Part shown: positions 44,399-51,275 of the stretch, in pieces | Layout: every line of letters starts with the position of its first letter | How positions within the stretch are numbered: position 1 is the first letter of the stretch | Origin: Melioribacter roseus | GTDB taxonomy: Bacteria; Bacteroidota; Ignavibacteria; Ignavibacteriales; Melioribacteraceae | Length of the DNA: 64,000 nucleotides | Direction: 5' to 3' | NCBI GenBank assembly: GCA_020722065.1 | Contig: DYLK01000002.1 | Span: 62,001 to 126,000 of the forward strand | The notes under the pieces: generated by a model | Told to the model about the DNA's origin: nothing | Seen by the model: only the letters and a program-made list of their open reading frames with translations | The model's database searches: none | Program-made: the position numbers and the translations under genes

Positions 44399-45688
44399 TT
44401 ACCTCTTTAGGTTTTGTTGTATTTTGATAATTCTTTCGCTTACAATTTTTCCACTTAATATTGCACTTTCGATTGTTTGAGGAATTTGTAGTATTGTCCA
44501 ATCGCCAGCAAAAAGAAGTCGATTGTAAGGAAAGGGAATTATTTCTTGTAAATTTATAATCAGATTTTCGGACAACATTGTAGCTTTTTTTATTTTTAAC
44601 ACATCGAAATTTACAACATTTTCCATTGAAAACGAATTACATTTTTTATTAATTTCTTGGAAAATAATTCCTATCAAGTCATTATTATTTAGATGTTGTA
44701 AGCCTTCACTATTGCTTATTACAATAGTTGCTCGCAATTTATCAATAAAAAGCCAATCAATAAATGAATCTGAAATTGCAAACATTCCATTTTTAAGCAA
44801 TATTTTCTTTAATTTGAAATTTATTGTGATAATTGAATTGCCTTTCCACTTGTTTGGAAAATTAATTTTTGGATGAAGTAATTGCTCAATTTCATTTGGC
44901 TGAATTGTCGAAATTACATAATCATAAGTAATTGTATTTCCATTATTTACTGCAATTTCCACTTTGTCGTTTTCTAAAAATGATATTCTATTGATTTTAT
45001 TTTTCAAAAATATTTCAATTCCAAACTGTTTCGATTTTTCCAAAAAAGGATGAACGAAAAGTTTTGCTAATGTAGATTTTGGAAGATAAAATCTCGAATT
45101 CCCTGAACTTGAAGAAAATATATTTTTTATTACATAATGAAGCTGGTTTTCTTCAATATTCTCAATTCCTGTGTTAAATACTGATAATAGGAGTTTCTTC
45201 CAGAAATTGTTTAAATTTTTGAATTTTGTTTCATCAAGTATCAATAATTCTGATATCGATTTTTGAGAATATTTATTCTTTTTAAGATAATTAATTTGTT
45301 CTAACAACTTTAATTTTTCAGAAAAAGTGAAGTATTTGTTTGATATTAATCCTAAAATTAAATTAATAGGAAAAATAAAATGCGGATTTTTGAAAGGAAA
45401 AACTTTATTATCTCGAATAAAATGCAACTTTTGTTCAACTAAATCTTTAATAGAAAAATTTGGTTGAACTTTTTTAAGGTACGAAAAAGTGTTGTGGTAA
45501 GCTCCAGAAATTAAATGCTGTCCAAAATCAACTTTTCCAATTTTGGCAGAATTAATTCCCATAATTCTACCGCCAAGTTGAGATTTCTTTTCGTAAATAT
45601 GAATTTTTACAGGATTTGTTGCATTTGTGCTTATTTCCATTGCGGCTGATAAAGCAGATAAACCTCCACCAATTATTGCAATTTCCAA
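44399..45688 (-). CDS. hpnE: HpnE-type FAD-dependent desaturase/reductase (squalene synthesis)
   Basis: The protein has an FAD-binding N-terminus (EIAIIGGGLSALSAAMEI), GGRIMGI, and the C-terminal FAD motif LLFAGDWTILQIPQTIESA. HpnE-type proteins reduce hydroxysqualene to squalene, the third step after HpnD and HpnC. I prefer the TTG at 45688, giving 429 residues and the family N-terminus; a TTG at 45718 lies further inside the upstream gene. It overlaps hpnCD by 16 bases. Confidence 0.88.
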   Translation of the reverse strand: MEIAIIGGGLSALSAAMEISTNATNPVKIHIYEKKSQLGGRIMGINSAKIGKVDFGQHLISGAYHNTFSYLKKVQPNFSIKDLVEQKLHFIRDNKVFPFKNPHFIFPINLILGLISNKYFTFSEKLKLLEQINYLKKNKYSQKSISELLILDETKFKNLNNFWKKLLLSVFNTGIENIEENQLHYVIKNIFSSSSGNSRFYLPKSTLAKLFVHPFLEKSKQFGIEIFLKNKINRISFLENDKVEIAVNNGNTITYDYVISTIQPNEIEQLLHPKINFPNKWKGNSIITINFKLKKILLKNGMFAISDSFIDWLFIDKLRATIVISNSEGLQHLNNNDLIGIIFQEINKKCNSFSMENVVNFDVLKIKKATMLSENLIINLQEIIPFPYNRLLFAGDWTILQIPQTIESAILSGKIVSERIIKIQQNLKR

Positions 45689-47376
45689 AGTCCTAATTTC
45701 CCTTTCACAATTTCCCAAAAAACGATTTTTAATTTTTCATTTTTAGTTAAACTATATCTATTTTCAATTACATTAAAATTATCTTCTTTCATCTTTTTAT
45801 ACAATTCAAAATATATTTTTCCCATCGCAACAGCTGGGAAAAGAGTTTTTTTATCTTTTTCATAAAGTGAATCGAATGCTTTGTAATAGAAATCTTCGGC
45901 TTTTTTGCCTAAAATAGATAACATTTCTTTCATTTGCGGACGAACTCTTTTTTCCATCAATTCAGATTCTTTTACGCCAAATTCTTCTAAAAATGTAAGT
46001 GGAATATAAATTCTTCGCATTAAATAATCTTCTCGAACATCTCGAATTATGTTAATTATCTGCAATGCTTTGCCAAGATTTATTGCAAAACTTGGTGCAA
46101 TTGGGCTTGTGTAACCGAAAATCTTCAAAGAAATTAAACCGACAGTTGAAGCAACATCATAAGCATAAGATTCTAATTCAGCAAAATCTTTTATTCTATC
46201 TTGCAAAATGTCTCGTTCAAGTCCGCGTAGAAGTTCAAAAAAATACAATCCGTTGATATCATATTTTTCTCGAATTTTCCCTATTCTATTCATCAATTCG
46301 ATTGTTGATTTGCCATTGAAACCCAATTCTAATTCATTCTGCCAATTAACTAATGTAATATCTTTTGGTAAATTTGTTAGCGTTTTATCCACAATTTCAT
46401 CACTCATTCTTGCAAAAGTGTAAAAATCTTCAATATCCTTACTTTTTTCTTTTGGTAGAAACTTAAAAGTGTAATAGAAATTGCTCTCTCTATTTTTATT
46501 TTTACTTATTTCCAACATAACCTCAAGTAAAATTTTTATTCTATCAAAATTATTTAATTTTGGAGGATTTTCAAGTAGATTTTTTATCGAACTTTGTTTT
46601 ATTTTCTTAAGAATTCTCCAACCGCCTAAAATTGTCAATTTGATTTGAACTCGTAATTTTAGTGGAAGATATTTTGTAATTCTTGACCCTTCGCGATAGA
46701 ATTCCTCTATTTTTTCTGAATATTTATTAACAATTTCAGCTAATTTCGGGTGATTTTGCTCTTCGAGTAATTTATCCTTTTCCAAATCATATTGCTTTAA
46801 ATTTTCGTTAGCAAAATATATTCTATTTCTTTCGTAATCAGATTTAATGTCTTGTAAAAAGTTGGTTAATTGCAATGCCGTTGTTATTTTATCAGCAAGT
46901 TGATGAATTTCTTGATTTTGTATTCCGTGTATTTCTAAAATTAATTTCCCAATTGGATTTGCTGAGTTTTTTGTGTAATTCAAAATATCGTCGTATTTCT
47001 CAAATTCCTTCATTTCAGCATCAAATTTAAATGCTTTTAACAAGTTGAAAAGATTTTCAATATTCAGATTGTTTTTAGCAAATACATACTTCAGACTTCT
47101 AAAAAATTCTTGCATTTCGTTCGGCACATCATTTTCTAATTGCATTCTGAATAAATCAAGTTGTACAATTTTATTATAAATTGGAGAATCTTTGGAATCT
47201 GCAATATCATCTGACAAACGAGCAAATTTGTAAATTAAGGCAATAGAATTATTTTGTTCCTTGCTGAAAAAGAGGGAGAGTACAGGAAAGTTTTCGTAAT
47301 GATTTTTTGAAAATTGTATGGCTTTTTTTACTTCATTTTCAAAACCGATTGGCTTTGTTAAAGTTGTTGTTTTCAC
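45673..47376 (-). CDS. hpnCD: Fused HpnC-HpnD: hydroxysqualene synthase plus presqualene diphosphate synthase
   Basis: One 567-residue frame holds two complete trans-isoprenyl synthase domains. The N-terminal HpnC-like domain (about 10-275) has DDIAD (56-60) and QDIKSDYERNR (175-185). The C-terminal HpnD-like domain (about 290-550) has DEIVD (326-330) and RDVREDYLMRR (445-455). HpnD makes presqualene diphosphate from two farnesyl diphosphates; HpnC turns it into hydroxysqualene. These are normally separate genes. The start is GTG at 47376, overlapping the upstream stop as GTGA. Both Asp-rich motif pairs are intact, so both halves look active. Confidence 0.9.
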   Translation of the reverse strand: MKTTTLTKPIGFENEVKKAIQFSKNHYENFPVLSLFFSKEQNNSIALIYKFARLSDDIADSKDSPIYNKIVQLDLFRMQLENDVPNEMQEFFRSLKYVFAKNNLNIENLFNLLKAFKFDAEMKEFEKYDDILNYTKNSANPIGKLILEIHGIQNQEIHQLADKITTALQLTNFLQDIKSDYERNRIYFANENLKQYDLEKDKLLEEQNHPKLAEIVNKYSEKIEEFYREGSRITKYLPLKLRVQIKLTILGGWRILKKIKQSSIKNLLENPPKLNNFDRIKILLEVMLEISKNKNRESNFYYTFKFLPKEKSKDIEDFYTFARMSDEIVDKTLTNLPKDITLVNWQNELELGFNGKSTIELMNRIGKIREKYDINGLYFFELLRGLERDILQDRIKDFAELESYAYDVASTVGLISLKIFGYTSPIAPSFAINLGKALQIINIIRDVREDYLMRRIYIPLTFLEEFGVKESELMEKRVRPQMKEMLSILGKKAEDFYYKAFDSLYEKDKKTLFPAVAMGKIYFELYKKMKEDNFNVIENRYSLTKNEKLKIVFWEIVKGKLGLWKLQ

Positions 47377-49316
47377 AAGTTACTTTTTGGAATTATTAAT
47401 TCTATTGTAATTTCATCTATTTCACTGCTTTTTACAAAAAGTTTACTTTTGTTAATTTCAATTATACGTTTTACTAATTTTGGACTGATATCCGATTCTG
47501 TTTCGTTGTCAAGTGTGGTTGCTAAACTATTTCCTTCATATTTTGCTTTCAAATCTAATGCGGACTCCATTACTTTTTTGGCTTCAATTCTCAAAATTAT
47601 AGTTTGCTTGTTATCTTCACAACCTATTTCAATTGAACTGCCAGAATGAGTGTGCTCTAATAAATGGAACAAAATATTCTTCAAAGTAAGCTCTATCAAT
47701 AATTTATCGCAGTTACAAATAAGTTCTTCGAAATTCTTCTGTTTTAATTCAACTCCAGATAAATTTGCACTATCGTTAAAAAAATCTACTACATCTGTAA
47801 TTATTTCACTCGTATTAAAATTTGATGGCGTGTAAATTAAACTTCCGATTTGTATTCTTGCCCAATGAAGTAGATTTTCAATTGTAAGAAGTAGTTTTTC
47901 AGAAAGCGATTTCAAATTACGAATTCCAACTTTAAGTTCACTTTGTTCAAGTGAATCAAAATCAGAAATGAGCAAATTTGAATTTCCAAGTAGCGATGTA
48001 AAAGGTATATGCAAATCTTTTGCTAAAATTGTAAAAAATTGATTTTTAGTATTAACTTCTTTTTGTAATAGTTTTTTATCGTAACTCAACTTTCGGTTTA
48101 ATCTTATAATTACAAAAAGCAGCAAAGCAATAAGTGAAAATATCCCAACAAACAAAACGACCAAAAAGTTAATTGCAACATGGTCTTTTTGTAAACTTAA
48201 ATTTTTAGACTTAATTCTTGATAATTCCATTAAATTGTTAAATTCTTCTAACTGAGTTTTTTTATCAATTGTTTTCAGAGAATCAAGAATTTTCGTGTAT
48301 CTTTTTTCTAATTTGATATAATTTTGGAAATCTCCCACGGATGAATAATATTTCAATTTTATCCGCATTGTTTCAATATCAACTTCAGTTAAATCTCTAT
48401 TTTTTAATTTTTTAGAATTTTCAATCGCTTCTTTTGCTAAATCAAATTCTTTGCTTTCGACATAACATTCCGCAAGCAAATTATAAGCATTTTGTAAGGC
48501 AATATAATTTTTAACTTCACTTAAAATTTTGATAGCATATTTTAATTGATTAATTCCTCGTTTTTGGTCTCCAAGTTTAAATGTTAAATACCCAATGGAA
48601 ACTAAAGCGATAGCTTTTCCGACACGATTTTTTTCTTTCACAAATTGATAATACATTTCGTTTGCAAGACTATCGGCGATCTCATATTTTTTTAACTCAA
48701 TATAATTTTTTACGAGATAAATATTATAGACATTTGCACCATTTACATCGTTAAGTTTTTCTCTAATTTTTTTCCCTTCATTTAAAAAGAAAATTGACCG
48801 TTCAAAATCTTTTAGATGAAAAAACCAGTTGCCTGCTTGAACATCAACATAAGCTAAACCTTCCTGATTTTTTAGAGATAAAAACAATTCGCGAGCAAAA
48901 AACAAATTTTTAAGAGCTAAGAAAAATCTTCTTTTAAATCCCCAATATCCACCAATATTGTTGTAAGCATAAGCTATTTCAGTAGAATCTTTGCACTTTG
49001 ATGAAATTGACAATGCTTTATTGAAAAAATAATAAGAAGAATCGAATTGAGAAAGATTTCGATATGGAACACCCAAAAGATTATAAGTTCGAGCAATTTT
49101 AGTTGAATCTTTAAGTAGAAAAGCTAATTTAAGAGCTTCTTTCCCAATTTTCTTTGCAAATTCTGGATTTTCTGAACGGAACATCCAAAGTGAATCTATT
49201 TTTTGATCATATTTTTTTAGCAATATTTCATTTTTCTGAGAGAAAAGATTTGATTGCAAAATCCAAAAACTTAGCAAAAGAAATGAAATTTTTGAATATT
49301 TTTCGAAATTCTTCAT
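47373..49316 (-). CDS. TPR-containing histidine-kinase-like protein, probable pseudokinase
   Basis: The 647-residue protein has a signal peptide, about six TPR repeats (residues 35-310), a coiled stretch, a membrane helix (about 385-405) and a kinase-like C-terminus. The phosphoacceptor position is Lys433 (LAKDLHIPF) instead of His, and the ATPase domain lacks the N-box Asn, the DxGxG loop and GxGLGL. It is clearly paralogous to the kinase gene three bases upstream (shared AYNNIGGYWG, SLLG, LLHWARIQ). It may sense or modulate rather than phosphorylate. It couples to hpnCD by GTGA. Confidence 0.85.
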   Translation of the reverse strand: MKNFEKYSKISFLLLSFWILQSNLFSQKNEILLKKYDQKIDSLWMFRSENPEFAKKIGKEALKLAFLLKDSTKIARTYNLLGVPYRNLSQFDSSYYFFNKALSISSKCKDSTEIAYAYNNIGGYWGFKRRFFLALKNLFFARELFLSLKNQEGLAYVDVQAGNWFFHLKDFERSIFFLNEGKKIREKLNDVNGANVYNIYLVKNYIELKKYEIADSLANEMYYQFVKEKNRVGKAIALVSIGYLTFKLGDQKRGINQLKYAIKILSEVKNYIALQNAYNLLAECYVESKEFDLAKEAIENSKKLKNRDLTEVDIETMRIKLKYYSSVGDFQNYIKLEKRYTKILDSLKTIDKKTQLEEFNNLMELSRIKSKNLSLQKDHVAINFLVVLFVGIFSLIALLLFVIIRLNRKLSYDKKLLQKEVNTKNQFFTILAKDLHIPFTSLLGNSNLLISDFDSLEQSELKVGIRNLKSLSEKLLLTIENLLHWARIQIGSLIYTPSNFNTSEIITDVVDFFNDSANLSGVELKQKNFEELICNCDKLLIELTLKNILFHLLEHTHSGSSIEIGCEDNKQTIILRIEAKKVMESALDLKAKYEGNSLATTLDNETESDISPKLVKRIIEINKSKLFVKSSEIDEITIELIIPKSNL

Positions 49317-49319
49317 AAG

Positions 49320-51275
49320 CTATTCTACTCTTGGAATTGTAAATATAAAAGAAGTACCTTGTCCAACTTCGCTTTCAACCGAAATGGTTCCACCATTTTT
49401 TTCAACCATTTCCTTTACAAGTGGTAAACCAAGCCCAGTTCCCTTTTCGCCGAGCGTTCCGTCAGAAGAACTATTGTTTGAAAAAAGATTATTTAATTTA
49501 CTTTTTTCAATTCCTACACCATTATCTTCTACAATAATTTTAACAAATTCTTGAGTTTCATCAATTTCTGAATGAATTGAAATTCTACCACCATTTCTAG
49601 TAAATTTTATTGAATTATTAATCAAATTTCTCAAAGCAGTTTCAAACATGGTTTTATCGCAAAAACACCGCAAATTTGGTTTGAATTGTATTTTCAATTC
49701 AACATCTTTGGCTTTAGCACTTTGTGTGTAATATGAAATTGTAGATAAAATTATTTTATCAACAACAATTACTTCAGGATTGTACTGAATTTGATCTGTT
49801 TGAGTTCTCGCCCACTGAAGTAAATTATCAACCATTTGGAGCAATTTTTCAGTTGAAGCTCGCATATTTCTCAAACCATTTTTTATTTCGGTTCTATCAA
49901 GTTCTTCAAATTCATCAAGTAAAAGCGAAGAATAACCCAGCAATGAACTAAATGGATTCTTCAAATCGTGTGCTACAATACTAAATAATTTATCTTTTGT
50001 TGTAATTGCTTCTGAGAGAAGAATTTTTTCTTTATTTATTCTTTTATTGAGATAAAAAATCAAACCGATTAGTATTAAAACAAAAACTGCCATAATCACA
50101 AAAAAGATTACTATTCTTTCTTTATAATTAAGATCTTCCTTAAGTTTTTCATTTTCTTGCTGAACTTTAGTTAGCTGGAACAAGTTTTCAAATTCATCAA
50201 ACTGCGACTTTCTCTCATTTACATCAAGTGAATCTACAATTCTTGAATATTCCCTTGATAATGCCACATATCTTGCAAATTCTTTAGTTTTTTCATAATA
50301 TGTCAGAAATTTTTGCAAAATTTCTAAATCTTCATCCGTTAGATTTCCTTTGGAATTTGCATGAGCTTGTTTAAGTGATTCGAAAGCTAATTCCATTTTA
50401 TTTTCAAACATATAAATATCAGCTAAGCGAGATAAAGCACGTTGTAAACCTAACGGATTATCAATTTTGGAAGAAAATTTAACTGCACCACGCAACAATT
50501 CTCCAGCTCTTTTATAATTACCAATTTTCCCTTGAATATAACCCATATTCGAAAGTGTATATGCTTTTCCTCTAATATCCTTTTTCTTAGTATAAATTAC
50601 AAAAGCTGTAAAATTAAGAGAATCTGCTAATTTATTGTTTCCGAGTGCAATATAAGTATCAGCAATTTGAGATAAAGTTGCTGCTATACCTAAACTATCA
50701 TTTTTTTGCTCACGAATTTTCAACGCTTCATTCAAATAAAAGAGGCTATTTTCATAATCTTTTAAATAACGAAACCACATCCCGATTTGAATATCAGAAA
50801 AACCTACTCCAACCAAATCATTTTTCCCCTTGAAATAATCACGAGCAATAGAAATATTTTTTATTGCAAGAAAATATCTGTTTTTGTATCCCCAATAACC
50901 GCCAATATTATTGTAAGAATATGCAATCTGAGTTGAATCGTTCCCCATTTTTGCATAATACAATGCTTTTAAGTACATTTTGTATGAAGAATCATAGTTG
51001 GCAATGTTTCTGTAAACGATTCCTAAATAATTGTATGCTTGTGCAATATGAGAAAAATCATCATTTTCACTTGCAATTTTTAATGCTTTCCGAGCAAATT
51101 TTTCTGATTTATATGGTTTTGACCCACGATTATTCCACGCAGAATCAAGTAATTTTACAACTTCTTTATCGGAATTTTGGAAAAATTGGGCATAGCTTTC
51201 CGAAGTCGCTAAAACAAGCACAAAAATGGTAATGATTGATAAAATATTTTTGGTTTTCCTGCTCAAACTCTTCAT
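49320..51275 (-). CDS. TPR-containing sensor histidine kinase
   Basis: The 651-residue protein has a signal peptide (to about 29), TPR repeats (about 35-330), a coiled coil, one membrane helix (about 390-410) and a full kinase core. The H-box is SIVAHDLKNPF with His436, the N-box RNLINNSIKF (from 549), G1 DNGVGI (about 584) and G2 GTGLGLPLVKEM (about 612). The TPR part is extracytoplasmic, so the signal is likely a protein or envelope state. No response regulator is adjacent. A near-consensus promoter lies at 51287-51317. Confidence 0.93.
   Translation of the reverse strand: MKSLSRKTKNILSIITIFVLVLATSESYAQFFQNSDKEVVKLLDSAWNNRGSKPYKSEKFARKALKIASENDDFSHIAQAYNYLGIVYRNIANYDSSYKMYLKALYYAKMGNDSTQIAYSYNNIGGYWGYKNRYFLAIKNISIARDYFKGKNDLVGVGFSDIQIGMWFRYLKDYENSLFYLNEALKIREQKNDSLGIAATLSQIADTYIALGNNKLADSLNFTAFVIYTKKKDIRGKAYTLSNMGYIQGKIGNYKRAGELLRGAVKFSSKIDNPLGLQRALSRLADIYMFENKMELAFESLKQAHANSKGNLTDEDLEILQKFLTYYEKTKEFARYVALSREYSRIVDSLDVNERKSQFDEFENLFQLTKVQQENEKLKEDLNYKERIVIFFVIMAVFVLILIGLIFYLNKRINKEKILLSEAITTKDKLFSIVAHDLKNPFSSLLGYSSLLLDEFEELDRTEIKNGLRNMRASTEKLLQMVDNLLQWARTQTDQIQYNPEVIVVDKIILSTISYYTQSAKAKDVELKIQFKPNLRCFCDKTMFETALRNLINNSIKFTRNGGRISIHSEIDETQEFVKIIVEDNGVGIEKSKLNNLFSNNSSSDGTLGEKGTGLGLPLVKEMVEKNGGTISVESEVGQGTSFIFTIPRVE

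Follow-up and report, generated by a model that had tools for sequence, protein, structure and literature searches.

HpnC, HpnD and HpnE are separate proteins in Zymomonas mobilis and Rhodopseudomonas palustris (review PMC7839719), and their genes commonly follow the order hpnC-hpnD-hpnE (PMC5462960). A fused HpnCD was found in 2017 in most of the subdivision-2 Acidobacteria genomes studied, with relatives in Actinopolyspora, Blastococcus and Rhodospirillum centenum (PMC5462960); published cases fall in Acidobacteria, Actinobacteria and Alphaproteobacteria. Here we describe such a gene in a 64,000-nucleotide stretch of bacterial DNA, the window. As in those bacteria, HpnC precedes HpnD in one polypeptide, a likeness that is drawn from the published description only and to phyla other than that of the window. 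The HpnCD architecture is already known and not new, and the window adds one lineage to it.

A preliminary description of the window had reported HpnC and HpnD as one uninterrupted frame of 567 residues. This proved exact: from its GTG start the minus-strand frame runs through 567 codons without a stop (Table 1). Searches with the NCBIfam profiles matched residues 24-287 to HpnC (TIGR03464, 331.7 bits, profile positions 3-266 of 267) and residues 294-553 to HpnD (TIGR03465, 330.7 bits, profile positions 3-262 of 267), above the curated equivalog cut-offs of 250.45 and 278.6 bits, respectively. The identities given to the halves therefore stand. Pfam likewise recognised two SQS_PSY stretches in the product. 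The closest solved structure for the HpnC half was itself an HpnC, while those for the HpnD half were of the CrtM and phytoene-synthase types. A whole-genome search, at an estimated completeness of 100%, found no second HpnC- or HpnD-like gene, so hpnCD would serve both steps if the pathway runs.

Table 1. Features of the hpnCD locus, in window coordinates.
Feature	Position	Strand	Basis or remark
hpnE-like gene, putative hydroxysqualene dehydroxylase; its probable TTG start, at ~45688, falls inside the 3' end of hpnCD	44399..45718	-	TIGR03467, 199 bits
hpnCD, fused HpnC-HpnD, 567 aa, GTG start	45673..47376	-	Open frame; above both NCBIfam equivalog cut-offs; sole copy found in genome
HpnD half (presqualene diphosphate synthase), residues 288-567; motifs DEIVD and RDVRED	45676..46515	-	NCBIfam, alignment; dN/dS against sister species 0.07
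hpnCD junction, ATTTTACTTGAGGTTATGTTG	46513..46533	-	One base longer than in G003 (ATTTTTTTGAGG...), the point there at which hpnC ends and hpnD begins
HpnC half (hydroxysqualene synthase), residues 1-287; HYENFPV, DDIAD and QDIKSD intact	46516..47376	-	NCBIfam, alignment; closest solved structure 4hd1 (HpnC)
TPR sensor histidine kinase; stop overlaps the GTG start of hpnCD by 4 bases	47373..49316	-	Open frame; NCBIfam

We next compared the catalytic motifs. Each half had been said to keep both Asp-rich motifs, and alignment agreed, with one refinement. In the HpnC half, DDIAD and QDIKSD aligned with those of 21 relatives. The HpnD half also has both motifs, with the outer aspartates (326/330 and 446/450) retained, and its first motif reads DEIVD, a D327E change from the second aspartate of the 21 two-domain relatives compared. 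The same DEI-D pattern occurs in other HpnDs of the genus. Among columns that are nearly invariant in the class relatives compared, 25 of 82 deviate in the HpnD half, against nine of 55 in the HpnC half. The deviations between residues 314 and 526 (window positions 45798-46437) include D327E, T441I and G454R. Since the HpnD of the window is 95% identical to that of its sister species and the divergence is common to both, most of it predates their separation. Given the 25 deviating columns, the exact activity of the HpnD half is not assured.

The gene lies in a tight minus-strand run of two TPR sensor histidine kinases, hpnCD, an HpnE-like oxidoreductase and, 4 bases beyond the latter, citrate synthase. 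The oxidoreductase matched TIGR03467 over its full length with a score below the cut-off of 283.05 bits; HpnE was nonetheless its top-scoring family, and among all proteins of the genome it matches HpnE best and alone does so over the full length. We call it HpnE-like on the basis of this score rank and its position.

To place the fusion among related bacteria, we searched 58 genomes of relatives, all of which had a match, and then 391 genomes of the class at an E-value of 1e-75, a threshold at which a more distant fused protein would be missed. Nearly all relatives carry hpnC and hpnD as separate genes, in agreement with the earlier statement that they normally are, and in most the two are neighbours that overlap or are separated by a few bases, and hpnE comes next. 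Of eight full-length matches in the first search that resembled fusions, the window's own is the only one with no stop dividing the halves, and the rest were rejected. Elsewhere in the genus, hpnD and hpnE stand together while hpnC is found apart from them, at a distance of 1.4 kb in G002 (L013/L035) and on another contig in G001 (L014/L036).

Across the class, the fused form was found in three of the 391 genomes, from two genera: the window's genome and G152 and G169, a pair of species from a single genus of a different family, whose frames are uninterrupted. At this threshold 51 other class genomes matched; they have a stop between the halves or, in the case of the sister species G003, a frame change; hpnC, a stop and hpnD often share one frame. 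Like the window, G152 and G169 have HpnE behind a single HpnCD frame. They differ from it in a junction about eight residues longer, in their place on a far branch and in being fused in both species sampled. In quick trees of both halves, of which only strongly supported groupings were used, the window paired with G003 and G152/G169 fell far off, which indicates at least two separate joinings in the class. A further fused protein came from outside the class: a single 552-aa CDS on a plasmid of the alphaproteobacterium Microvirga ossetica (RefSeq WP_162299269.1) matches both halves in one piece at roughly 26% identity. It has an FAD-dependent oxidoreductase in the HpnE position, as the window has its HpnE-like gene, but also crtI nearby, whereas no CrtI-type desaturase scored over the cut-off in the genome studied here.

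A close comparison was offered by G003, the sister species (recorded as Melioribacter roseus isolate SulCav_PC08_3_31_43, contig coverage 23.9 by its name), whose DNA is 92% identical; a scan of genome contigs matched only this species and one distant protein. The gene order around the locus is the same, but in G003 hpnC and hpnD are two overlapping frames. A single base at the junction makes the difference: the window reads ATTTTACTTGAGG, G003 ATTTTTTTGAGG. There, HpnC ends in KIFLRLLWK followed by a stop, and HpnD lies in the other frame, with TTG as its only usual start codon. The fused and the split form are known from one assembly each. Between the two species, dN/dS was 0.19 for HpnC, 0.07 for HpnD and 0.215 for HpnE. 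These values point to purifying selection on both halves across the species pair; spanning both lineages, they are silent on the period after the fusion.

Might the joined frame be a single-base assembly error, with overlapping hpnC and hpnD in the living bacterium? Removing one base from the junction would bring HpnC to the stop codon used in G003, and by inspection the series GAGG-TT-ATG-TTG, a GAGG followed by start codons, is still present at the start of the window's HpnD half. However, the window's junction (TTTTACTT) contains no long homopolymer. Over 141 kb compared on two contigs at about 92% identity, no clear net frame change other than that at the junction falls within a gene, as other intragenic gaps cancel out, keep the frame or lie near a gene start. 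An error would also have had to strike the 20-30 or so bases in which neither domain suffers. An assembly error precisely at the domain boundary is thus unlikely.

Several observations bear on the direction of the change. If the fusion predates the divergence of the two species, G003 must have lost a base in a run of Ts, or its assembly miscounts seven Ts for eight and G003 is in fact also fused. The G003 junction is indeed a T7 run. With eight Ts instead, the frame would be continuous (FFEVTLEISK), and the two sequences would then be related by two substitutions and no indel. Conversely, 143 other A/T runs of at least seven bases in coding DNA were examined, and in none does the frame change between the window and G003. 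As read, G003 has an HpnC of normal length, with the usual type of residue at position 285: lysine or arginine occurs here in 30 of 41 relatives and glutamate in none, and G003 has arginine where the fused frame has glutamate. The outgroups, although distant from the pair, nearly all have separate genes. Scored by HMM, the two candidate HpnC tails differed by about 0.7 bits, which was nearly uninformative. We therefore consider a fusion that precedes the species split unlikely, and hold with moderate confidence that the split state is the older one, because the outgroups are split and the G003 HpnC has normal length and arginine at position 285. The joining at the window locus, judged from the sequence comparison, looks very young.

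In G003, the hpnC frame carries a T-TTT-TTG run shortly ahead of the overlap, at about positions 1517-1528 of L003, and the register of this run fits a -1 shift into hpnD. Slippage at this run may already yield some HpnCD in the split sister, and the window species would then have fixed that product in frame, so that the pair would capture a fusion in the act; we regard this scenario as quite improbable.

Our preferred reading, to which we assign a probability of roughly 0.7, is that the gene encodes a bifunctional HpnCD that arose recently, when a one-base insertion at the boundary would have put overlapping hpnC and hpnD into one frame. The HpnD half is predicted to condense two molecules of farnesyl diphosphate into presqualene diphosphate, from which the HpnC half would make hydroxysqualene; the neighbouring HpnE would then reduce this to squalene. 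The expected chemistry has the same three steps as that of the separate enzymes of Zymomonas mobilis and Rhodopseudomonas palustris, with three proteins there and two here. The frame, the domain identities, the base difference and the rarity of the joining are read from sequence, whereas the direction of the change, the activity of each half and the form of the protein in the cell are inferred. The halves would work as independent domains linked by a short, flexible stretch, and the retained GAGG and ATG-TTG start-like site may still allow some free HpnD to be made from the old internal start.

A structural model is consistent with such a domain organisation. AlphaFold, run on a paired alignment in which neighbouring genes were translated across their in-frame stop, a device confined to alignment and folding, predicted two squalene-synthase folds with a mean pLDDT of 88 and a pTM of 0.55, and Foldseek matched CrtM-like and HpnC structures, each covering about half of the model. 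Junction residues 292-298 have a pLDDT below 50 and are disordered in the prediction. Two independent domains with a short, flexible connection between them are the most probable reading, their mutual placement being uncertain in this model.

The preliminary description had also raised the idea that the HpnD site might deliver presqualene diphosphate directly to the HpnC site. The pTM of 0.55 and the disordered junction lend this no support, and the AlphaFold model showed no fixed interface or tunnel between the halves. That the fusion was selected for such channelling could be argued from the recurrence of HpnCD joining in distant bacteria. Yet recurrence is equally expected from genes that lie a few bases apart and often share a frame, and with a disordered junction and an uncertain domain arrangement we find selection for channelling very improbable. 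The order of the halves had been noted as the reverse of the reaction order. The HpnC half does come first, but this needs no explanation beyond gene order: neighbours in the common hpnC-hpnD-hpnE arrangement were joined as they stood.

What becomes of the product was approached through profile searches, in which the absence of a cyclase leaves room for an unfamiliar enzyme. The genome's match to the squalene-hopene cyclase profile PF13243 scored 19.7 bits, below the cut-off of 26.1, and none of 56 genomes (G000 and 55 relatives) passed the cut-off of the squalene cyclase profile TIGR01787, though hpnC and hpnD are retained across the order. A literature search on squalene in Ignavibacteria or Melioribacter found nothing useful. 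Judging by gene content, the end product may be squalene or an unfamiliar C30 compound.

The host of the fused gene is an uncultured bacterium related to Melioribacter, and at the junction it differs from its split sister by one base. The joining of genes packed end to end evidently takes very little. Such a closely related pair of split and fused species provides naturally matched proteins for testing the effect of fusion on the flux or leakage of presqualene diphosphate.

As for the TPR sensor histidine kinases immediately upstream of hpnCD (47373-51275), these two adjacent genes of the same strand encode proteins of similar build, 647 and 651 aa long, and look like a tandem duplication.
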